36,375 nt of DNA, taken from positions 1-36,375 of the forward strand of contig JAFTPR010000010.1 of the NCBI GenBank assembly GCA_017463145.1, written 5' to 3'. The position numbers and the translations under genes were made by a program. This document shows, piece after piece, positions 24,042 to 36,375 of this stretch. Every line of letters starts with the position of its first letter. The stretch's first letter is position 1. The DNA comes from Clostridia bacterium (lineage in GTDB: Bacteria > Bacillota > Clostridia > Christensenellales > Borkfalkiaceae). The notes beneath the pieces were generated by a model. The model saw only the letters and a program-made list of their open reading frames with translations. It was not told the DNA's origin and did not search any database.

Positions 24042-25484
24042 TTAATAAATACTGAACGATACCCAAAGATAATTGCTCTTCCAAGTATCCCCGAAATTGC
24101 CATGCGCGCTATAACACATATACACCGTATCCCAAACCGCCGAAAGATCAAGTACAAATTGGAATTTATGGGTTGCATCCGTGCCTTGAGTCAGCTCCGT
24201 TACACTCCAAAGGGAAGGATTGCCTTGATCCACGTCCGCATAAACGCTGTTGGCAAGGTATATTTCTTTATATCCGTCATCCAGCTCCGTTATACTTATT
24301 TCTACGCTTACGGAAATCTTCGTATACCCTTCGGAAATCATAGTGCCAATGCCGCGCCCGAACAGTTCGTATAGCCTGATCGTGTCAAACGGATTTTTTT
24401 GCGTATGCTCGTCGTTGATTTCCAATCCCGCATTTCTCGAATAGACAGCCACCTCGCAACGCCATTGCGCCGTGAACGTAACGTCCGCAGCGGGAAGCGT
24501 GAACTGACCGCGATAGGTTGACCCGCCGTACTCCCAACCGATAAATTTATAGTATTGACGGCTGATATCGGGCAACGTAAGCACCGTTCCCGCGGCATAT
24601 TTGCCGCCTGCCACAATCTCACCGCCCGCACTCTCGAAAGAAACGGTGACGGCTTGTACTTTATCCGCAACGTACAATTTAATATTGCCCTCTACCTTGC
24701 CTGTATACACAAAACCCTTTACGTCGTCGTTCGTGGCGGTCGACCAATCGGTAATAAAAAATCCGTCCTCCACAACCCCCGCCGTCAACAAAGCAATATC
24801 CGTACCATACACCGCCGTTTCCGTTTTGAGCAGTTTCGACCCGTCCTTAGAATACAACTGCACCTCATAGCTTGCCAACTCGAAGCCTGCATACAAACGG
24901 ATATTTCTGTTTGCATCCGCAAGATTACGGAACGCCTTATCGCAAGCGTAGGTAGATATCCCCAGCTTATCGGCTATCATCAAGCCGCCGCAATTTTGCT
25001 CCGTATACCAACCCTTGAAAATTTGATGCCGATTCGTATGCACAATCAACTGCGCCGGCAATGCGGGTATACTTTCGTCCGTATGTACCTCTTCCACGGA
25101 AGCGCCCGTAACGTTCGCTTCGCCGTAATCGAGCACAAGCTTATACGTATATGCTTCAAACTGCGGATGCAAAACAATATCTCTACCGTCTAAAAACGCT
25201 TGCACGCACATACCGTCGGGGGTCACGTATTGCTTACCGTACTCCGTCAAATCATACCAACCGAGAAACGTATATCCGTCCTTTTGCGGAATATGTTCTT
25301 GGGGAATAGAATACAGTTTCCCCTCCGTCACCGTAAGCGTATGCGACGATATTCCGTCCGAATACATGATTGCATATTCGCCGAGGACAGAGCTATCCTT
25401 TTTCTTCAAAGCGTCGCACCCGCCAAGCAGACACGCGCAAAACAACAGGGACAATATGCCTAACCATACACACCTTTTCTTCAT
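24042..25484 (-). CDS. InlB-type beta-repeat lipoprotein, copy 4
   Basis: A 480-residue predicted lipoprotein with a signal peptide ending in LLGGC (residues 19-23). The first module after the signal (YAIMYSDGISSHTLTV, then GYTFLGWYD) is a Flg_new/InlB B-repeat-like beta-grasp unit. A second unit contains FKGWYTEQNCGG; a third ITDWSTATN; a fourth KFIGWEYGG ending FTAQW. The final ~130 residues (from CEVAVYSRNAG) are a different, non-repeat domain rich in Ser/Tyr/Val and probably beta-sheet. Such lipoproteins are surface-exposed in Gram-positives; no partner is known. Strong AAGGAGG site; last lipoprotein gene before tgt. Confidence 0.85.
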   Translation of the reverse strand: MKKRCVWLGILSLLFCACLLGGCDALKKKDSSVLGEYAIMYSDGISSHTLTVTEGKLYSIPQEHIPQKDGYTFLGWYDLTEYGKQYVTPDGMCVQAFLDGRDIVLHPQFEAYTYKLVLDYGEANVTGASVEEVHTDESIPALPAQLIVHTNRHQIFKGWYTEQNCGGLMIADKLGISTYACDKAFRNLADANRNIRLYAGFELASYEVQLYSKDGSKLLKTETAVYGTDIALLTAGVVEDGFFITDWSTATNDDVKGFVYTGKVEGNIKLYVADKVQAVTVSFESAGGEIVAGGKYAAGTVLTLPDISRQYYKFIGWEYGGSTYRGQFTLPAADVTFTAQWRCEVAVYSRNAGLEINDEHTQKNPFDTIRLYELFGRGIGTMISEGYTKISVSVEISITELDDGYKEIYLANSVYADVDQGNPSLWSVTELTQGTDATHKFQFVLDLSAVWDTVYMCYSAHGNFGDTWKSNYLWVSFSIY

Positions 25485-26030
25485 TCGTACAAAGCCTCCT
25501 TGGATTATCCACCGTAGTTTGCAAGCTCAAAGCCCGCATACAAACGAATGTTGCCGTTTTCGTCCGCAAGCGCGCGGAACGTTCCGTTACAAGTATACGT
25601 GGATATCCCCATTTTATCCGCAATCATCAAACCGCCGCAATTCTCTTCCGTATACCAACCTTTAAAAATCATATCACGGTTTGTTGGAATGACAAGTTGC
25701 GAGGGCAACACGGGTAAATTCTCATCCGTGCATACTTCCTCAACGGTAACGCCGTTCACGTCTGCGTCGCCGTAATCGAGCACGATCTTATACGTATTCG
25801 CCTCGAATTGCGGATACAGTATCAAATCCCTGCCGTCCAAAAACGGCTGTACGCACATACCGTCGGGCGTAACGTACTGCCGTCCGTACTCACGCGCGTC
25901 AAACCAGCCGAGGAACGTATATCCGTCCTTGGGCGCGGGAATGTGTTGCTGGGAAATGGAATACAGCTTGCCCTCCGTCACCGTAAGCGTATGCGACGAA
26001 ACGCCGTCCGAATACATAATATCGTATTGC
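24870..26030. repeat. Direct repeat of two paralogous lipoprotein N-terminal halves
   Basis: The segments about 24,870-25,400 and 25,500-26,030 encode near-identical protein modules and share long stretches of nucleotide identity, for example around the codons for MYSDG, SHTLTVTEGKLYSI and WYTE-NCGG. They are direct repeats in the same orientation and could recombine. Confidence 0.7.
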
Positions 26031-26197
26031 TCGGGCGCAGAGCTTGCCTGTTTTTGCGGAGGAGCGCAACTACCGTACAAAAATCTGTACATTTGCGGAT
26101 CCATATTCTCCGTATCCGTCAATTCTTCGCACCCGCCGCAAAAGCACGCGCAAAATAAGCCTAACACCGCGCCTATCAACGCAAATTTCTTTTTCAT
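25505..26197 (-). CDS. Short InlB-type beta-repeat lipoprotein, copy 3 (truncated paralog)
   Basis: A 230-residue relative of the downstream lipoprotein, with signal peptide ending CGGC, an extra ~25-residue linker, then the same first two modules (YDIMYSDGVSSHTLTV, GYTFLGWFD, FKGWYTEENCGGLMIADKMG). It stops at ELANYGG, exactly where the paralog continues with ELASYEVQLYSK, so about 250 C-terminal residues are absent. The stop codon is followed at once by the ribosome binding site of the next gene, so the truncation could come from recombination between the two copies. It may still be made and exported as a short protein. Confidence 0.8.
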   Translation of the reverse strand: MKKKFALIGAVLGLFCACFCGGCEELTDTENMDPQMYRFLYGSCAPPQKQASSAPEQYDIMYSDGVSSHTLTVTEGKLYSISQQHIPAPKDGYTFLGWFDAREYGRQYVTPDGMCVQPFLDGRDLILYPQFEANTYKIVLDYGDADVNGVTVEEVCTDENLPVLPSQLVIPTNRDMIFKGWYTEENCGGLMIADKMGISTYTCNGTFRALADENGNIRLYAGFELANYGG

Positions 26198-26214
26198 CTA
26201 TAACCTTCTCCTTT

Positions 26215-28722
26215 TTATTTCCAGCCGTAAATGATTACAGGTCCTGCCGACGAATCCTGCCAAACACTCGAAGAAAAACCGAGGTTGGAAAGGCTCATAG
26301 TTACTTTCGACGCGCCGCTGCTGCTTCCTGAACCGATCAACGTATCGCTCGCCTCGCTGTAACACCTTGCCATGCTTGCGCTGCCATTCACGCCGATTAG
26401 CGAACCGCCGTACGCCGTATTATGCCCCTTTGCGCCCTCCTCCGCCTTTGCAGAGATTGTGTTTCGATACCCCAACACGTTCGTCATAAACACGGAAGAA
26501 GCGTAGCCAACTACGCCGCCCGCATAGGACTTGGGTCTGCCGCCGCCTGTTTCGATACCGAATATACCGTACATTTTACTACCCTTGCCGTACGCCGTAA
26601 TTTTACCGTTTCGAGAATAACAATTTTCAATATTCCCGCCCGTTGCTTGCCCGACGATACCGCCTACATAGCTTCTTGCGTCCTCGTAGCCCGTGCGCGT
26701 TTGCGCCTCTATCGTGCAGTTCGTTACGCCGCATTTCTTGATTGTACCCGTGCTTTCGCCCGCAACCGTTCCCGCATACGTATTGAACGTAGTGGAAACC
26801 TCAATCTTACCGAGTTTGCCGTACACGCTACCGTTTTGCACAATTACGTTTTCGATTGTACCCGTATTTACGCCACAGACCGTACCGATATACAGCGTTC
26901 TTGTGCTTGCGTTGCCGAGGTCGCCTGTATTCAGCGTACAACCGCTCAGCTTCAAATTCTTAATCGTACCCTTATTCGTACCGAACAAACCGACTTTAAA
27001 ATCGCCTGTCACGCCCGTATAATTCCAATTCGAAATCGTATAGCCGTTACCGTCCAACGTGCCTTGGAACGTTCCCAAAGGTACGTAGCCCGCATCCTTT
27101 AAACTGAAACTCTTCAAAAGAAGATAATTCCCCGCCGTGGCAATCGTCTTAAAATCGCTTGCGGAAGCGATATACGTCTTATCATACGTTTGCGCCCACT
27201 TTGCGTACAGTTTACAATCCTCTTCTCTTATCCACGTATACCCGCCCGCGCGGTTTTGCGTATAGCCGCTACAAGCAATCAAAGCGCCTTGCCCGTCCGT
27301 AACTGCCGTATCCGCAGCAAAAGTCGAGCTTGTATACCAACCGACGAACGTATAATATTCCGACGTAGGCACGGCAAGCTTTTGTCTGCTTCCGTCGTAA
27401 ATTCCCGCAGTATTTTGCGTAACCGTTGCCGTCGTTTTCAACGTAGATAAGCTCAAATCATACGTCACCGTCGAGTTTTTCCCCCAACTCGCCACGAGCG
27501 TTATCCCCGTCACTTTATTCCAATTCGTAACGCTGCTGCCCGACTCACCGGTCAACGATTCTCCGTCCTCCGTCTGCCACGCAAGGAACGTATACCCCGA
27601 TTTTTGGGGTACGGGCAACGTATACGCCGCGCCGTAATACACCGTTTTTTCCGTTGCGGAAAGGTCGCCGCCGTTTGCATCCAACTGTACAACGTACGCA
27701 TTTGCGCTCCATTTTGCCGTCAAGGTCATATTCGCCATAGGCGCAACGGAAGCTTCGTCAATTATCTTGCCTACCGCGTCCAACCAGCCCTCAAACGTGT
27801 AGCCCGTCCGTTCCGCCGTAGGCAAAACAACGCTATCGCCCTCTGCCACGCGTTTGGTTTCCGTCGTGCCGTCCGCATAATCAAACGTAAACAAAAAGCC
27901 GTAAGAACGTACGTACAAGACAAGCGTACCCTCTACGTTACCCGTCACCGCAGAACCGCCGTTGGTTCTCGTCCAATCAACAATCTGCTTGCCCTCGTAT
28001 TCCGTAGGCGCAATATCCGCTATCGCTGTTCCGTAAGGCACGGTCGTTTCCTTTAATAATGCGCCGTCCTTAGAATGGAATTTTACCGAATACGAACCAA
28101 TCTCGTATCCTGCATATAATTGCAACGCTCGGTTCTCGTCCGCAAGCGCGCGGAAATCCGCATCAAAGGTCAAATCGGAAGCTCCGTTCGCCCCGCTAAC
28201 CTTTACGCCCCCACAATTCTCTTCCGTATACCAGCCTTGAAATACGTAATAGTGGAGTTCGCCCTTGGGAAATCCCACGGGAAGCTGCGGAAACGCCTCG
28301 TCCGAAGCGACCGTATACGTATCTTCATTGTCGCCTGCAATGCCGTAGTCGAGATGCAGTTTATATTCGTACGCCTCGAATTGGGGATATAAAACGATAT
28401 TTTTATTGTCCGCAAAGGCCTCTTTGCCCATACCGAGTTCCGTCACGTACTGTTTGCCCCACTCCTCACCGTCAAACCAGCCGAGGAAGGTATATCCTTC
28501 CTTTTGCGGGATATGCTCTTGGGGAATGGTATACAGTTGTCCTTTTTGCACCGTCAGCGTATGCGTCGTCACGCCGTCCGAATACAGAATTTCGTAAAAA
28601 GCAGGCGCAACGTCGCTGCTCGGCTTCAAGCCCGAGATGACGCTTTTGAATTTATCGCACCCGCAAAACAGACAAGCGCAACCGATTGCGGCAAGCCCCG
28701 CCGCCAAAAGCTTCTTATTCAT
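26215..28722 (-). CDS. InlB-repeat and GLUG-repeat lipoprotein, copy 2
   Basis: An 835-residue predicted lipoprotein with signal peptide ending FCGC. About six InlB/Flg_new-like modules follow (GYTFLGWFD, FQGWYTEENCGG, IVDWTRTNGG, GYTFEGWLD, GYTFLAWQT, FVGWYTSS), each ending in an LYAxW or similar beta-strand. From about residue 545 the sequence turns into GLUG-like repeats, including VGLFGTNKGTIKN, AGTVAGESTGTIKK, VGGIVGQATGGNIEN and AGGVVGYASS. It closes with LGFSSSVWQDS, a common end of GLUG regions. GLUG repeats form beta-helical, often adhesive surfaces. AAAAGGAG site upstream of the ATG; 17 bases separate it from the next gene. Confidence 0.87.
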   Translation of the reverse strand: MNKKLLAAGLAAIGCACLFCGCDKFKSVISGLKPSSDVAPAFYEILYSDGVTTHTLTVQKGQLYTIPQEHIPQKEGYTFLGWFDGEEWGKQYVTELGMGKEAFADNKNIVLYPQFEAYEYKLHLDYGIAGDNEDTYTVASDEAFPQLPVGFPKGELHYYVFQGWYTEENCGGVKVSGANGASDLTFDADFRALADENRALQLYAGYEIGSYSVKFHSKDGALLKETTVPYGTAIADIAPTEYEGKQIVDWTRTNGGSAVTGNVEGTLVLYVRSYGFLFTFDYADGTTETKRVAEGDSVVLPTAERTGYTFEGWLDAVGKIIDEASVAPMANMTLTAKWSANAYVVQLDANGGDLSATEKTVYYGAAYTLPVPQKSGYTFLAWQTEDGESLTGESGSSVTNWNKVTGITLVASWGKNSTVTYDLSLSTLKTTATVTQNTAGIYDGSRQKLAVPTSEYYTFVGWYTSSTFAADTAVTDGQGALIACSGYTQNRAGGYTWIREEDCKLYAKWAQTYDKTYIASASDFKTIATAGNYLLLKSFSLKDAGYVPLGTFQGTLDGNGYTISNWNYTGVTGDFKVGLFGTNKGTIKNLKLSGCTLNTGDLGNASTRTLYIGTVCGVNTGTIENVIVQNGSVYGKLGKIEVSTTFNTYAGTVAGESTGTIKKCGVTNCTIEAQTRTGYEDARSYVGGIVGQATGGNIENCYSRNGKITAYGKGSKMYGIFGIETGGGRPKSYAGGVVGYASSVFMTNVLGYRNTISAKAEEGAKGHNTAYGGSLIGVNGSASMARCYSEASDTLIGSGSSSGASKVTMSLSNLGFSSSVWQDSSAGPVIIYGWK

Positions 28723-28743
28723 CTTACGCTTCCTCCAAACAAA

Positions 28744-31700
28744 TTATATCCCGGGTTGCCCCGTCGCGCCCTTGCCGCCTGCGCTGCCGTACCAAGTTCC
28801 GTGATCCCAGCTATGGTTATATACGTATCCTCTTGCGCCGCCGTCACCGCCGTCGCCACCCAAACCGGGCTTAGGCGTAGCCGTACTCGCCTTTCCTGCG
28901 CTGTTACTGCAAGTCGAACCGACGTTGGCGGAAGCCTTTCCTGCGCTTCCGTTGAAACCACGGTCGCCGCCCGTACCGCCTGTACCGCCCGTACCGCCCT
29001 TCAAACCGCGGTGACGGGAAGTATCGACAATCAACACGCCGTTGCCGTTATGCACCGCGCCCTGTCCGCCCGTGCCGCCTTTTCCGCCTTTTCCGCCGTC
29101 TGCGCCCGCGCCTGCGTTACCCGAAACAAGGGTTACGTTTGCGGGAAGCGGAGAATAGACCAATACGGAAACCGCCACGCCGCCGTCACCGCCGTCACCA
29201 CCGTCGCCGCCCGTATAGCCCATACCGCCCTTGCCGCCGTTTTTGCCTTCGGAAGCGTTTGTACTGAACGCATACGTGCCTTTCGTACCCGTATCGCCTT
29301 GCGCGCCTTGCGCGCCTTCCTTGCCGTTGCCGCCGTGACCGCCGTACACGCTCACCTTACCCGACATTGTAACACTCATACGCGTTGCCGAAATACCGAT
29401 ACCGCCGTTTCCGCCGTCACCGCTCGACACCGTTGCGTTTGCGCCGTTACCCGCTTTCACCGTCAATTCGCCGTCGCCCTTAATCAACAGCTCCGCGCCC
29501 TTTAAGTTGAACACGTTTCCGCTTGCCGCGCTCGTGCTGACGGTGCTGTACCCCTTTACGTTGAGTACGACGTACGCACCCGAATCGTTATACAGCTCGA
29601 CAACGTTGCCTGCGTTCCCCGTGAAATTGAAATCGACGAAATGGATATCCACACGCTGTCCGTTGGCAAAGTTGCAAATATCCAAACAAAGATTGGTAAA
29701 CGTCTTGGAGGAGTTGCCGATAAATACGACCTCTTCCGTCGTGTTGCCGATATTGATATGGTTATAATTGCCGTTTACAACAAATCTCGACGTATGGTTT
29801 AAAAGATTTGTGTCCGTTTCCTTGCTCCAATCAAGAATGACTCTGCCTGCCGTCGTATACGGCGAAGCGTCGATACTCGTGTATACCGTACACAAATCCC
29901 ACGCGGCATACAAAGTGACGTCCCTCGGATTTTCCTCCAAAGCAAAGGGAGAACACCAATCCGTTAAATCCTCGTCTAAATACCACCCGTCGAAACGGTT
30001 ATACTCGGCATACGTGGTGTAAACGGGTTTGGGGAATTGCGTGAGTTTGGTATACTTCACCGTATACGTCGCCGCCCCGCTGAGAATACCCCCGTTAGGT
30101 ATAAGCGTGACCTCATAGCTGTTCTCCGACCATTTCGCCGTTACCGTAACGCTCTTTTCGGGTGTGATATCCGCAGTCACTTCAACGCCCTTATTATCAA
30201 ACCAACCGAGGAACGTATAGCCTGTTCTTTCCACAAACGGAAGCTCTACGCTTTCCCCTTCCATAACACGCTCCACCTCGGTCGTACCGTAGCCGTAGTC
30301 AAACGTGACAAGGTAGCCGTAGTGCAATACGTAAAATTTCGATTCCCCGACAATCGCGCCTTCGTACGAATCGCCCCCGATTGTTTTCGACCAATCGACG
30401 ATATCCCCCTCGCCCGTTTCCTGCGTCGGGGCGATATCGTAAATACTCTGTCCGTATTTACCTACCGTTTCCAACAGCAATTTTCCGCCGCTCTTGGAAT
30501 AAAACTGTACGGTATAGCCCACGGCTTCCCATTGCGCGTACAATTTCACGCGCGCCGTAAGTTCCCAAGCAATCAAACTGTCGCCGTATTCGTCCGTAAA
30601 GGGCACGCCGTTCTCGTCCGCCCAACCCGCGAACGTATACCCCGTTTTCATAGGTACGGGCAGGGAATATTTGCTCTTGTATTCCACAAGCTGTTCCACT
30701 ACGGACAGCGAACCGCCCTTTGCGTCGAACAGTACTTTATACTTGTTTGCTTCCCATTTCGCGCGAAGCGTGACGTTCCACGTGGGGCAATAATCCCCTG
30801 TATGTACGTTGCCTTTTTCGTCCGCCCAACCCGCCAAGGTGTAGCCCTCACGGCTGACCTCGGGCAGGAACGTGCTTTCGCCTTCCGTCAAAACAACGGG
30901 CGCAGGCACTACGTCCAACGTGCCGTCGAACGTGACCGTGAATTTATAGTGCATTACGTAGAGATTGAGGTTGCCTTCCAGCATACCCGTAAACACGACC
31001 GAACCGCCGTAGCCTCTCGTCCAATCGACAATCTCCATCGTACCCTCGTGCGTGGGCGCAAGGGAAAGAACCTCTGCGCCATACTTGGCGGTTTCTTCTT
31101 TTAAAAGCTCGCCGTTCTTGGAATGAAACTTCACGGAATATTCGGCAATTTTATAACCCGCATATAATTGCAAAGAACGGTTCTCGTCCGCCATATCGCG
31201 GTACTTTTTCCCAAACGTCAATTTAGACGCGCCGTTCGCGCCGCAAACCTGTTCCCCCCCGCAATTCTCTTCCGTGTACCAGCCTTGGAACACGTAATAG
31301 TGGTATTCGCCCTTGGGTACGCAAACGGGAAGCGAAGGGAACGTTTCGTCCGAACATACCGTATCATACTCCTCCGTTGCCTCCGCTACGCCGTAATCGA
31401 GATACAACGTGTATTCCAGCGGGATAAATTGCGGATACAATACAAGGCTTTTCTTATCGGCAAACGCTTCCTTACAAGTGCCGTTTGCGCTCACGTATTG
31501 TTTGCCGTACTCCTCTAAATCGTACCAACCGTCAAATACGTAACCCTCCCGTTCCGCGGGAATATGTTCTTCGGGTATGGCGTATAATTCGCCCCACTCG
31601 ACTTTCAGCGTATGCGTGGATACCCCGTCGCTGTACATAATTGAATATTCTGCTGCGCCGCTAGACGCTTCTTCCTTTTTTTTTGTTGCAACCGACGAAT

Positions 31701-33202: not shown

Positions 33203-33234
33203 CAGCCCTGCGGAGAGAGATTTCCACAGGGCTG
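33203..33234 (-). terminator. Terminator of the FRG operon
   Basis: CAGCCCTG (33203-33210) and CAGGGCTG (33227-33234) form a perfect 8-bp stem, extended by a partial GGAAA/CGGA pairing. On the minus strand it is followed by TTTTATG. It lies about 30 bases past the last gene of the operon. Confidence 0.75.
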
Positions 33235-33265: not shown

Positions 33266-34012
33266 TCAAGTATCAAGTTCTTTATAATAACAAATCTCTA
33301 TTTTTTCTTCTTCGGTAATACCAAAAAGTGCCGCGTATTTTTTATATTTCTCGTAAAAAATCTTTTTATACTCAATCAATCCATGTCTATCGTACCAATC
33401 AGCTTCATTAACAATGGACTCAACGATATTTTTCAAGGACGCCAAATCTTTAATTTCCTCTTCTGAAAATATTCCATTGATAAAGAAGAAAGAACTATTT
33501 TCGATAATATCAGCAATCCTACTATTTAATACTGTATAATAAGGCATTATTTGATTGCATAAAAAACCATGTTTTTTCCTTTCGATTTCCGCATCAACTA
33601 TGGGTTGTTCGTCATCTAAACTCATTTTCTCTTTTGCTTTTTCAATGCAACTTAAAAGCAATTTATTTATTTCGCCTATTTTCATTTCTTGAGAACAGAA
33701 AGTAAAACTTTGAGGATTGTGAAGATGTAAATATCCTGACGTTTTTTGTATTTCTAAAGCGAGAACTTGCTTCATCCATATTCTCGTCGACATAGTAACA
33801 AATTCACGTTGCTTGCTAATGTTAGCCTTTTGTTCGCGTAAATTAGCCGCCTCGACTCTCCATGAAACAATAGCGGAACAAAGAACGCCTGAACCTATCA
33901 TCGCCATAATATTCCAAATAACATCCCATACACAATCGGAAAAAATAGTGAATATTAGCGATAAAGTTGCAAGTACTCCAAAGGTTATCATAATGATATA
34001 TTTCTTTTTCAC
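33266..34012 (-). CDS. Two-TM membrane protein with helical cytoplasmic domain, third gene of FRG cassette
   Basis: A 248-residue protein starting at a GTG (34012) with AAAGGTGG 7 bases upstream; longer frames overlap the previous gene and lack a ribosome binding site. Two hydrophobic segments (about residues 6-23 and 30-50) form an N-terminal hairpin, followed by ~195 hydrophilic, mostly helical residues rich in Glu, Lys and Ile. No enzyme motif is visible. I do not recognise the family. It follows the zinc-ribbon gene by 14 bases and shares its low GC, so it is part of the same operon. Two-TM effector-like proteins are common in bacterial defence operons, but a role here is inference. Confidence 0.8.
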   Translation of the reverse strand: MKKKYIIMITFGVLATLSLIFTIFSDCVWDVIWNIMAMIGSGVLCSAIVSWRVEAANLREQKANISKQREFVTMSTRIWMKQVLALEIQKTSGYLHLHNPQSFTFCSQEMKIGEINKLLLSCIEKAKEKMSLDDEQPIVDAEIERKKHGFLCNQIMPYYTVLNSRIADIIENSSFFFINGIFSEEEIKDLASLKNIVESIVNEADWYDRHGLIEYKKIFYEKYKKYAALFGITEEEKIEICYYKELDT

Positions 34013-34026
34013 TTGTATTCCACCTT

Positions 34027-34767
34027 TTAATAATCTTTTTTCTTGCCACAACGCGAACAAATATCCGAAGTAAAGAAGATAAACTTTTTCTTGAACGCAC
34101 CGCCACAATGCTGACATAATCCTTGATTGCGGTAAGACCTTTTCTGCGCTTCAATTCTTTCTTGTCTTTTGCGCGCTTCTTCTTTCCTTTGTTGGTCTTG
34201 TTGCTTTCTCTTCGTATCTAAATCGACCACAGGAACTGTTATTTCTATCTTTTGCGGTTTTTGTTCGGGTGTATAGATTGTTGCTTGTTTTGCTGTGTTG
34301 CATTTTTTAAGATATAAGGGTATCGACTTCCATTCATTTATAAAAGATTCTAAATCGGAATAAGTCGCCGCTTTTGCATACAACACGCCTAATAACAACT
34401 TATGAGTGTCGTATCTATTGTACAGTTTTTCTTGTATAATAAACTCTACAATTTCACTCATTGTCGAATTGTTTATATTTATCAATGATTCAAACTGTTT
34501 TTTATCTATGAAATCTTCACAAGTCTGCTTTGATACAATATAAATAATCATTAAGCTCTTGTAATGCTGATATGTAAATTGCGATTTCGAAAGATTTGAA
34601 TAGCTTAAAAACGCGCCGTGTGTATTTTGACTTATCCTGTCCACTTCAACATGCTTTAATATCGCACTTACAATGATATTTTTTAACGTATTATCTTTTT
34701 CTATTTTTACAGCTTCTCGCTCCAAATAGAAGATTTTTAGAAACACCATTAAAGCTTGATATTCCAT
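34027..34767 (-). CDS. Coiled-coil plus C-terminal zinc-ribbon protein, second gene of FRG cassette
   Basis: A 246-residue protein. The first ~150 residues are helical with no recognised motif. A highly charged Lys/Arg/Gln/Glu coiled-coil follows (about 183-214: KRKQQDQQRKEEARKRQERI). The last 30 residues form a zinc ribbon with two CxxC knuckles, LCQHCGG and ICSRCGKK. The longer frame begins 25 codons earlier, inside the FRG gene; the ATG at 34767, 4 bases after the FRG stop, is the more natural start and implies translational coupling. The ribbon suggests nucleic-acid or protein binding. The family is not one I recognise. Confidence 0.8.
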   Translation of the reverse strand: MEYQALMVFLKIFYLEREAVKIEKDNTLKNIIVSAILKHVEVDRISQNTHGAFLSYSNLSKSQFTYQHYKSLMIIYIVSKQTCEDFIDKKQFESLININNSTMSEIVEFIIQEKLYNRYDTHKLLLGVLYAKAATYSDLESFINEWKSIPLYLKKCNTAKQATIYTPEQKPQKIEITVPVVDLDTKRKQQDQQRKEEARKRQERIEAQKRSYRNQGLCQHCGGAFKKKFIFFTSDICSRCGKKKDY

Positions 34768-34771
34768 AGCT

Positions 34772-35896
34772 TCAATTATACGACGACAGGAATTTCTTAA
34801 ACGGAAAGTGTGTGAACGGACTATATTTGCAGTTTTCCACATAGTTATCTAAATGATATTTACAATTTGCTGGACACAAGAAACCGCTTCCGATTGTAAA
34901 TGGACAACGCCCACGATACCTAAATCTATTTAATTCGTTGCTATCCGTAGATAACCCACATAAAATGAAAGCACCATCCTGCTTGATAATTCGTTTGTTG
35001 TTTTTTGTCGCCAAAACAATAATACTGCGTAATATATCTTCTTTTTTAATATTTGCTTCAAACGCAGGTTTTTCAAATCTTATTTCGTGCAATAATTTCC
35101 CCACCTTATCATTAAAATCTTTTTGCGATAACATATTGTCTTCTGCATTAAGCTTAAACATATTTTGTATTGCCTCGCTAAATACAGGCAAACTTGCCAA
35201 GATAGTAGCTGTATCGCTTTGAGGATATCTTATTTGATTTTTCTCCGACTCAATAAGAACAACTTCACCATCGCGATCAAAATGATTCTCACAAGCAAAA
35301 TATAAAGCGACCAAAGGATTCGTAGTAATATCCAATAATCTTGTCGGCAAACCATAGTGTTGCATTTCCACTAATTTTTCCAAGTGTGAGTGTAAATTAT
35401 AAAAATCATCTGGGCAAGTTATAAGTACCTCTTGATACATTTCGCTTTCTTTCTTTTTCCAAGAAAGATTTCGATAAATAGAAGGTTGCAAAACATAATT
35501 AACATCTGCGTGACCACGATAAAATGTCATTTTATCTCTTTTATTGTAATTGGCAATAGCAGAATTAAAGGAAGCAATAGATATAATCGGCTTAATTTCT
35601 ATTTTTCTTTCATTGTAAAAAATACCATTCTCGTAAACAATGTTATATTCAATAGAGCTCAGCTCCTTGATTTGCCCAAATAAGCTTAAAGTTTGATCTA
35701 TTCTTTGTTGTTTTTCTTCTAATGCGCCATACGCCCAATATAAAATAGCCTCTGCTTCTACTCGATTTATTTTTTCTTCTTTTTCAATCGAAAACCCCAT
35801 TTGTCCCCAAACTTGCCTAATCGTATCCTTTGTGGGATATTCCATTTTGTATAAATTGATAAATTTTGATTTTACAGTAGCTAAACGAAACGACAT
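34772..35896 (-). CDS. FRG-domain protein, first gene of a three-gene cassette
   Basis: A 374-residue protein with a clear FRG domain: MTFYRGHADVNYVLQPSIYR (residues 123-142, containing the Phe-x-Arg-Gly core) and LVEMQHYGLPTRLLDITTNP (175-194), then ALYFAC. The FRG domain (PF08867) occurs in many bacteria and phages; its biochemical activity is not established to my knowledge. The C-terminal ~50 residues have four cysteines (GRCPF, LCPANC, ENCKY) that could bind metal. The start ATG at 35896 has only a weak ribosome binding site; the alternative Met18 has none. Base composition is much more AT-rich than the core genes. It heads an operon of three tightly spaced genes and is divergent from the transposase. 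Confidence 0.88.
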   Translation of the reverse strand: MSFRLATVKSKFINLYKMEYPTKDTIRQVWGQMGFSIEKEEKINRVEAEAILYWAYGALEEKQQRIDQTLSLFGQIKELSSIEYNIVYENGIFYNERKIEIKPIISIASFNSAIANYNKRDKMTFYRGHADVNYVLQPSIYRNLSWKKKESEMYQEVLITCPDDFYNLHSHLEKLVEMQHYGLPTRLLDITTNPLVALYFACENHFDRDGEVVLIESEKNQIRYPQSDTATILASLPVFSEAIQNMFKLNAEDNMLSQKDFNDKVGKLLHEIRFEKPAFEANIKKEDILRSIIVLATKNNKRIIKQDGAFILCGLSTDSNELNRFRYRGRCPFTIGSGFLCPANCKYHLDNYVENCKYSPFTHFPFKKFLSSYN

Positions 35897-36060: not shown

Positions 36061-36375
36061 ATGAAAAAACACTATTCACCATCTCAAATCGCACAATGCT
36101 GTTTAGAATACAAGCGTGGGCTATCCGTTCAGGAACTAATGGAAAAGTATCAAATCCCCCGCAGCACTCTCTATTATTGGTTCAAGAAATATAATGATTT
36201 ACCGAAAAATAATCAAATTAAATTAACGCATGTCTGTGAAATTTTGCAAAAAGTCAACTGCACAGCATCTGCGCCTTTAAAGACAAGACTGTATGAATTA
36301 GAAAAGCTCTACGGGGAATATTCCGTACACGAATTATGTTCAGCTTTAAACGTAAGTCGTGGCACTTTTTACAAC
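36061..36375 (+). CDS. IS3-like transposase, N-terminal part (runs off right edge)
   Basis: The first 105 codons of a transposase. Residues 1-45 form a helix-turn-helix (SPSQIAQCCLEYKRGLSVQE, then YQIPRSTLYYWFKKY) like IS3-family OrfA. They are followed without a frame break by KTRLYELEKLYGEYSVHELC and ALNVSRGTFYN, resembling the N-terminus of IS3 OrfB. The DDE catalytic domain would lie outside the window. A fused OrfA-OrfB reading frame is seen in a subset of IS3 relatives. AAGGAG lies 8 bases before the ATG. The gene belongs to a mobile element whose left end should be between the FRG start and this promoter; I could not define the terminal inverted repeat. Confidence 0.85.
   Translation, partial: MKKHYSPSQIAQCCLEYKRGLSVQELMEKYQIPRSTLYYWFKKYNDLPKNNQIKLTHVCEILQKVNCTASAPLKTRLYELEKLYGEYSVHELCSALNVSRGTFYN

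Follow-up and report, generated by a model that had tools for sequence, protein, structure and literature searches.

Results

A three-gene operon of foreign base composition

The window, that is the whole stretch of DNA analysed, is an entire contig of 36,375 nucleotides from a 1.4-Mb metagenome assembly of 64 contigs (76% complete). Towards its end lie three minus-strand genes encoding 374, 246 and 248 amino acids, with intergenic gaps of 4 and 14 bases and all frames open, which are referred to below as the cassette:

34772..35896, minus strand: gene 1, FRG protein P0001, 374 aa (Pfam FRG, PDC-S15 and viral FRG HMM matches)
34775..34915, minus strand: module A, cysteine-rich C-terminus of gene 1, residues 328-374 (match in genome G024)
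34027..34767, minus strand: gene 2, P0002, 246 aa, ATG start, gap of 4 (translation, Pfam, sequence comparison)
34288..34743, minus strand: body of gene 2, residues 9-160 (distant relative in genome G076)
34007..34292, minus strand: block B, 286 bp, reaching from the linker of gene 2 across the ribbon to the gene 3 start codon (blastn)
34030..34116, minus strand: KDY zinc ribbon, CxxCGGxFKxxF...CxxCGKKKDY, ending at the stop codon (translation, profile, pattern)
33266..34012, minus strand: gene 3, P0003, 248 aa, GTG start, gap of 14 (two membrane segments and a soluble part; orphan)
33203..33234, minus strand: terminator of the operon (12-pair stem, then TTTTAT)
36061..36375, plus strand: transposase-like ORF, incomplete at the contig end (Pfam HTH_23 1e-9, HTH_Tnp_1 1.7e-7)

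An earlier note, made from the sequence alone, had described a one-strand trio with these gaps and a common terminator, and this was borne out by the reading frames and by the 12-pair hairpin at 33234-33203, which has the longest stem among the four terminator-like sites of the region (mean of 2.1 in shuffles). The ribosome-binding site upstream of gene 3 (AAAGGTGG) is good, and gene 2 is probably translated via coupling to gene 1. The note had also called the cassette far more AT-rich than its flanks, and the measured GC agrees (0.32-0.33 vs. about 0.50): genes 1, 2 and 3 have a GC content of 0.329, 0.331 and 0.320 and a GC3 of 0.288, 0.332 and 0.285, against 0.498-0.539 and 0.551-0.663, respectively, in the four other window genes measured. 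The adjoining transposase that it reported has clear HTH_23 and HTH_Tnp_1 matches, but the call rests on the N-terminal 105 aa, because the ORF is cut at the contig end, which is also the window end. For an empty-site analysis, five loci with the hydrolase gene that neighbours the cassette were compared, and its surroundings were not conserved among them. Elsewhere in the window (24042-31638), four consecutive minus-strand ORFs encode related repeat proteins with motifs such as YTFLGWYD; by eye, three have a lipoprotein-like start, and the last one has a long glycine-rich end.

Gene 1 carries an FRG core without the usual C-terminal block

That gene 1 encodes an FRG-domain protein was confirmed with Pfam FRG (PF08867; E 3.7e-20, 73.1 bits, above the gathering score of 25). 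P0001 also matched 15 models of PDC-S15, the PADLOC candidate built on FRG proteins (best 4.8e-74; 17 families were listed in all), and the match spans profile positions 6-229 of 286, with the usual C-terminal block missing. From its name, we take PDC-S15 to be a single-protein candidate without adaptor or membrane partner. An HMM built from 32 viral FRGs matched P0001 at residues 62-323 only, here termed the FRG core. R127, H180, T185, D189 and Q306 are among the residues that never vary in an alignment of P0001 with 30 of the 32 non-redundant viral FRGs, and R127 and Q306 may be catalytic. A sequence search of the PDB with P0001 gave no match. Passages of PMC9503650 assign FRG, like RES, to the ART superfamily and regard it as a potential antiviral effector, possibly an NADase; the placement of the cassette FRG in that superfamily rests on these passages, its fold and activity being putative.

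Relatives of the FRG protein were found in 281 plasmid records, 201 of them called conjugative, in 16 phage records, including TP901-1 and a P2-like phage, and on 82 viral contigs (80 kept), in line with the earlier statement that FRG domains are widespread in bacteria and phages. In Lactococcus phage TP901-1, the match to the FRG core (E 3e-8) lies in ORF54 (L101:4052-4387), a short ORF after the lysin gene. Fifty of the 80 viral loci yielded 47 FRG ORFs, of which 43 remained unique when compared over the last 200 aa. On visual inspection, a common block was recognised in the C-termini, some 60-70 aa or more past Q-x-G-A-F, with L167 as a clear exception. An HMM of this block, which lies outside the Pfam FRG definition, was built from 32 non-redundant viral FRGs with L167 excluded; it gave P0001 -0.8 and -1.9 bits vs. 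49-55 bits for the FRG of genome G036. Six-frame scans covering the operon and 6 kb of L016 detected no displaced copy of the block.

Among the 61 relatives searched, seven matched P0001, one of which, G024, did so via module A alone. The closest FRG copy, in G005 (L016:1825-2694), is 87-89% identical (89% over 243 codons, with dN 0.064, dS 0.82 and dN/dS about 0.08); judged by these codons, the FRG core is under purifying selection. The G005 copy ends early, cut after about residue 277. It sits at a border between genes of 0.42-0.46 GC with the look of a mobile element (by eye) and core metabolic genes. Gene 1 may thus be a broken gene, given the lost C-terminal block and the truncation of its closest copy.

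Modules exchanged with a nuclease-like locus

In the position of the usual FRG C-terminal block, gene 1 carries module A, which shares 77% identity with a 44-residue stretch in the middle of a 919-aa protein of G024 (DNA 80.8% identical over 99 bp). Since the FRG match ends at residue 323 and the usual block is absent, gene 1 is a chimaera of an FRG core and module A. Differences from G024 at the first, second and third codon positions number 6, 6 and 23, with dS saturated, a pattern that by its codon distribution indicates selection of module A as protein, which may predate the fusion to FRG. Module A was present in two of the 57 genus genomes (its own and G024) and, among 391 class genomes, in its own only, a count that leaves out a weak second match (3.3e-4) with an internal stop. 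A diverged FRG C-terminal block was considered as its origin and rejected: the block HMM scored -1.9 bits, a value equalled or bettered by 246 of 719 scored shuffles (1000 made). Alignment with the FRG block lines up K346 and a T-x-F-P pattern.

The second shared segment, block B, is 96.5% identical to G024 DNA and ends where the third gene begins, at its start codon. In protein terms, the final 90 aa of gene 2 are 91% identical to the end of the same 919-aa protein, so that one G024 protein holds both module A and this terminus. Differences by codon position are 1, 0 and 6 over 83 codons, which points, on codon pattern, to selection at the protein level. At its N-terminus, the 919-aa protein has similarity to DUF4379 and to MTES_1575-type nucleases (E 9e-4, below cut-off), and a 1003-aa homologue in G005, which shares the ribbon, passes the DUF4379 cut-off; the third gene in G024 is HNH-like (HNH_5 E 0.0039, below cut-off) in place of P0003. 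The cassette and G024 thus have one module order (effector, A, body, B, accessory gene) but different effectors, bodies and accessory genes: the G024 and G005 proteins have the MTES_1575/DUF4379-like N-terminus in one fused gene with other accessory genes, and the cassette has an FRG in a two-gene arrangement. At the level of these alignments, genes 1 and 2 are shown to be mosaics that exchanged modules with the nuclease-like locus of another species.

A junction of FRG with module A, or of the gene 2 body with block B, could in principle have been created by the metagenome assembler, and an assembly of 64 contigs at 76% completeness, together with the 96.5% identity of block B to another species' locus, invites the suspicion. 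We nevertheless consider such an artefact very improbable, given that GC is uniform over the three genes and that both frames are kept across the junctions; a simple mis-join with the G024 locus is unlikely because module A is only 80.8% identical over 99 bp.

The body of gene 2 and its links to defence-type genes

The translation of gene 2 consists of a helical-looking body, a linker rich in E, K, R and Q, and a C-terminal CxxC...CxxC zinc ribbon. The earlier note had described a coiled-coil/zinc-ribbon protein, and the charged stretch and the ribbon are visible in the translation. No curated family, including antitoxin and DNA-binding families, matched at cut-off. Within the genus, the body has one weak relative, a part of a 513-aa Mrr-nuclease protein in G076 (E 7.8e-7, 25% identity; blastp E 9.6e-8, 24%), and in the 391 class genomes none beyond its own; a plasmid search with the G076 protein gave nothing useful. 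By Pfam, the G076 protein adjoins a RES-domain gene, a point in common with the FRG/RES clades of the ART superfamily; the cassette itself has no RES domain.

The promoter, leader and first codons of the G076 gene (125 bp) are 98.4% identical to those of an unrelated helicase-nuclease gene in G022 that matches PADLOC PDC-S37 and Hhe:

L022:2793-2917 and L204:7896-8020: shared 125-bp promoter/leader in two species of the genus, 98.4% identical

A search with this leader returned one full match, in G022, besides many short ones of promoter-like kind spread over 21 of 33 genomes. The two loci have an additional 33-bp match at their far ends. Because the G076 and G022 genes are unrelated and share this leader, different defence-type genes stand behind one promoter in the genus. 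The RES neighbour and the shared promoter count in favour of the defence reading given in the earlier note.

The same neighbourhood raises the alternative of a toxin-antitoxin-like module, with FRG as the toxin, gene 2 as the antitoxin and gene 3 unrelated, serving maintenance of a mobile element and not immunity. RES toxins are known from RES-Xre modules, the gene 2 body relative adjoins an ART-type RES gene, and the FRG gene and gene 2 are tightly coupled as a pair. This seems improbable to us. Family searches with gene 2 returned neither an antitoxin nor a DNA-binding domain; in G036, the other FRG gene of the genus inspected in full, neither gene 2 nor gene 3 accompanies FRG, and the 43 unique viral FRG ORFs showed no common downstream partner by eye, a small membrane-protein-like ORF following in two of them (L124, L170).

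Gene 3 and the single occurrence of the trio

P0003 has two N-terminal hydrophobic segments (residues 6-24 and 31-49) followed by a soluble part, as expected from its earlier description as a two-TM protein. Relatives were found in its own genome only among the 57 genus and 391 class genomes, and none in plasmids, phages, viral contigs, genome contigs or the PDB, some of these scans being pattern-based and able to find close relatives only. Membership of a known family was rejected, as no curated family fits, and so was kinship with the 4-TM protein of the ribbon loci described below, which is unrelated. The ribbon gene of G005 also has a neighbour whose product is predicted to contain two membrane segments; this neighbour lies on the other strand and has no similarity to P0003. 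With gene 3 lacking relatives in all collections searched, no second genome with the trio is known, and the co-occurrence in distant genomes on which the earlier note had placed its check failed to appear in the genus genomes, the class genomes or the genome contigs.

The absence of the FRG C-terminal end and the single sighting of the trio make a decaying mosaic the strongest rival explanation, namely that chance joined an FRG gene without its 3' end to parts of a nuclease-like locus next to a transposon, with no working system now. The G005 FRG copy likewise lacks its end, and a transposase fragment is adjacent. We hold this to be rather unlikely: the three frames are open, closely spaced and followed by a terminator, both fusions are in frame, the differences in module A and block B fall mostly at third codon positions, and the FRG core retains its invariant residues.

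A zinc ribbon shared by unrelated proteins

Gene 2 conforms to the ribbon as defined here, CxxCG..C..C closing in K-D-Y at the stop codon. A profile of its last 47 aa, searched against one genome per species in 84,980 species, returned 29 loci, of which 25 are in records named as Clostridia groups, one in Coriobacteriales, one in Synergistaceae and two in spirochaetes. By manual count, K-D-Y or K-N-Y stands exactly at the stop in 22 of the 29 loci; of the remainder, the protein ends before it in three, continues for three residues beyond it in two and has it internally in two. A K-[DN]-Y pattern applied without a C-terminus requirement found 27 ORFs in the 29 loci, all 27 ending there, and 29 of 31 ORFs in other, redundant loci did likewise.

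The proteins and neighbours of these loci are diverse. Pfam identified TIR in 12 of the 29, RCC1 in 11, BspA-type LRR in five (one below cut-off) and an Mrr nuclease in one, four loci being read through the same genes in other loci. Among 185 neighbour ORFs, an SPFH/Band-7-type gene was seen in at least 10 of the 29 (both examples tested were confirmed by Pfam) and a 4-TM gene beside it in at least eight, these counts being lower bounds because the flanks extended up to 5 kb. In L074 there is also a SIR2 gene that matches ThsA and LmuA weakly, and in L071 a PDC-S31 gene (DUF2971). In gut Clostridia MAGs, tandem TIR/TPR/RCC1 genes, several of them KDY-ended, form an operon with genes for a 4-TM protein and an SPFH/Band-7 zinc protein (L074:1236-10113; also L073, L077, L085, L087, L088, L090 and L097, the last from a Treponema MAG).

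In the genus, five genomes had strong ribbon matches (G000, G005, G019, G024 and G075) out of 39 of 57 listed; no weak match was counted, since of four opened, three proved to be another, acidic protein with a zinc ribbon, and the last one sits among the same neighbours as that protein. Of 11 among the 391 class genomes listed, the cassette's own genome, G337, G456, G160 and G215 were counted after ORF reading, and G204, G118, G253, G257, G267 and G461 were dropped as other zinc proteins or chance. G160 alone encodes five BspA-type LRR-like ribbon proteins (L028, L036, L037, L038, L039), several adjacent, with one ending in KDYR, one in KNY and one in KSY. On viral contigs, the profile of the ribbon had no match, and none of the 80 viral FRG loci had a KDY ORF, both of which speak against a tight link with FRG. 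Judged by this distribution, the KDY ribbon is a C-terminal module common to many unrelated proteins and not specifically a nucleic-acid binder; the earlier note, which had read gene 2 as a nucleic-acid-type zinc protein, had not seen this.

Discussion

Considering the above results, we tentatively propose, at somewhat less than even confidence, that the cassette is a horizontally acquired, mobile operon of the abortive-infection type that combines an FRG (ART-superfamily) effector with a module-swapped adaptor. The proposal builds on the operon layout and the foreign composition, on an FRG core that keeps its invariant residues, and on the exchanged modules and the ribbon common to many other proteins. 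In this model, the FRG core would be an ART-superfamily enzyme that, once triggered, consumes NAD+ or modifies a target. Gene 2 would be an adaptor or sensor with a variable body and the ribbon as docking tag, restraining the FRG protein or switching it on when infection is sensed, and gene 3 would anchor the complex to the membrane or serve there as a second effector. The locus would diversify as effector, body and accessory gene are swapped around the conserved blocks A and B.

We count in favour of the operon reading the TIR (12 of 29), SPFH (at least 10 of 29) and 4-TM (at least 8 of 29) genes at the ribbon loci, together with the SIR2 and PDC-S31 genes of single loci. Against it stand the single sighting of the trio, the possibly broken gene 1, the one weak relative of the gene 2 body, the orphan status of gene 3 and the lack of any KDY ORF at the 80 viral FRG loci. 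The defence-type module suggested in the earlier note is supported in part, as regards its operon-like form, foreign composition, PDC-S15 match and mobile FRG relatives, but not as a set of three genes found together elsewhere.

The TIR-RCC1/LRR ribbon proteins with SPFH and 4-TM genes, a gut-Clostridia group for which we know of no name, resemble the cassette in the ribbon with its K-D-Y end, in an NAD+-related enzyme type and in a membrane protein nearby; TIR proteins cleave NAD+ in known cases. No TIR or SPFH domain was found by Pfam in the three cassette genes. PADLOC has no models for genes 2 and 3, for the 919-aa, HNH-like and HEPN-like proteins, or for the TIR-RCC1-KDY, SPFH and 4-TM proteins. 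A broader idea, which we regard as speculative and unlikely as it stands, is that the KDY ribbon may be a portable C-terminal docking tag that plugs varied effectors and sensors into a common immune hub of gut anaerobes, often beside an SPFH scaffold, in loci that swap bodies between conserved tag blocks; the cassette would then be the FRG-armed version. Such a tag would cover TIR proteins, the FRG-linked adaptor, Mrr/Vsr-like nucleases and RCC1/LRR/WG repeat proteins.

FRG as a defence candidate is already known. For the ribbon, the module exchange and this gene set, no published description was found in the papers searched on FRG, PDC-S15 and TIR-zinc ribbon/RCC1/SPFH/Band 7, in agreement with the earlier note, to which no described system with this exact set was known. 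FRG proteins are frequent on plasmids and phages and biochemically open, and a swappable adaptor offers a route to their trigger. Furthermore, the recurring ribbon ties several kinds of enzyme to one possible docking partner, and one shared partner could account for an entire group of as yet unnamed immune-type proteins from gut bacteria.
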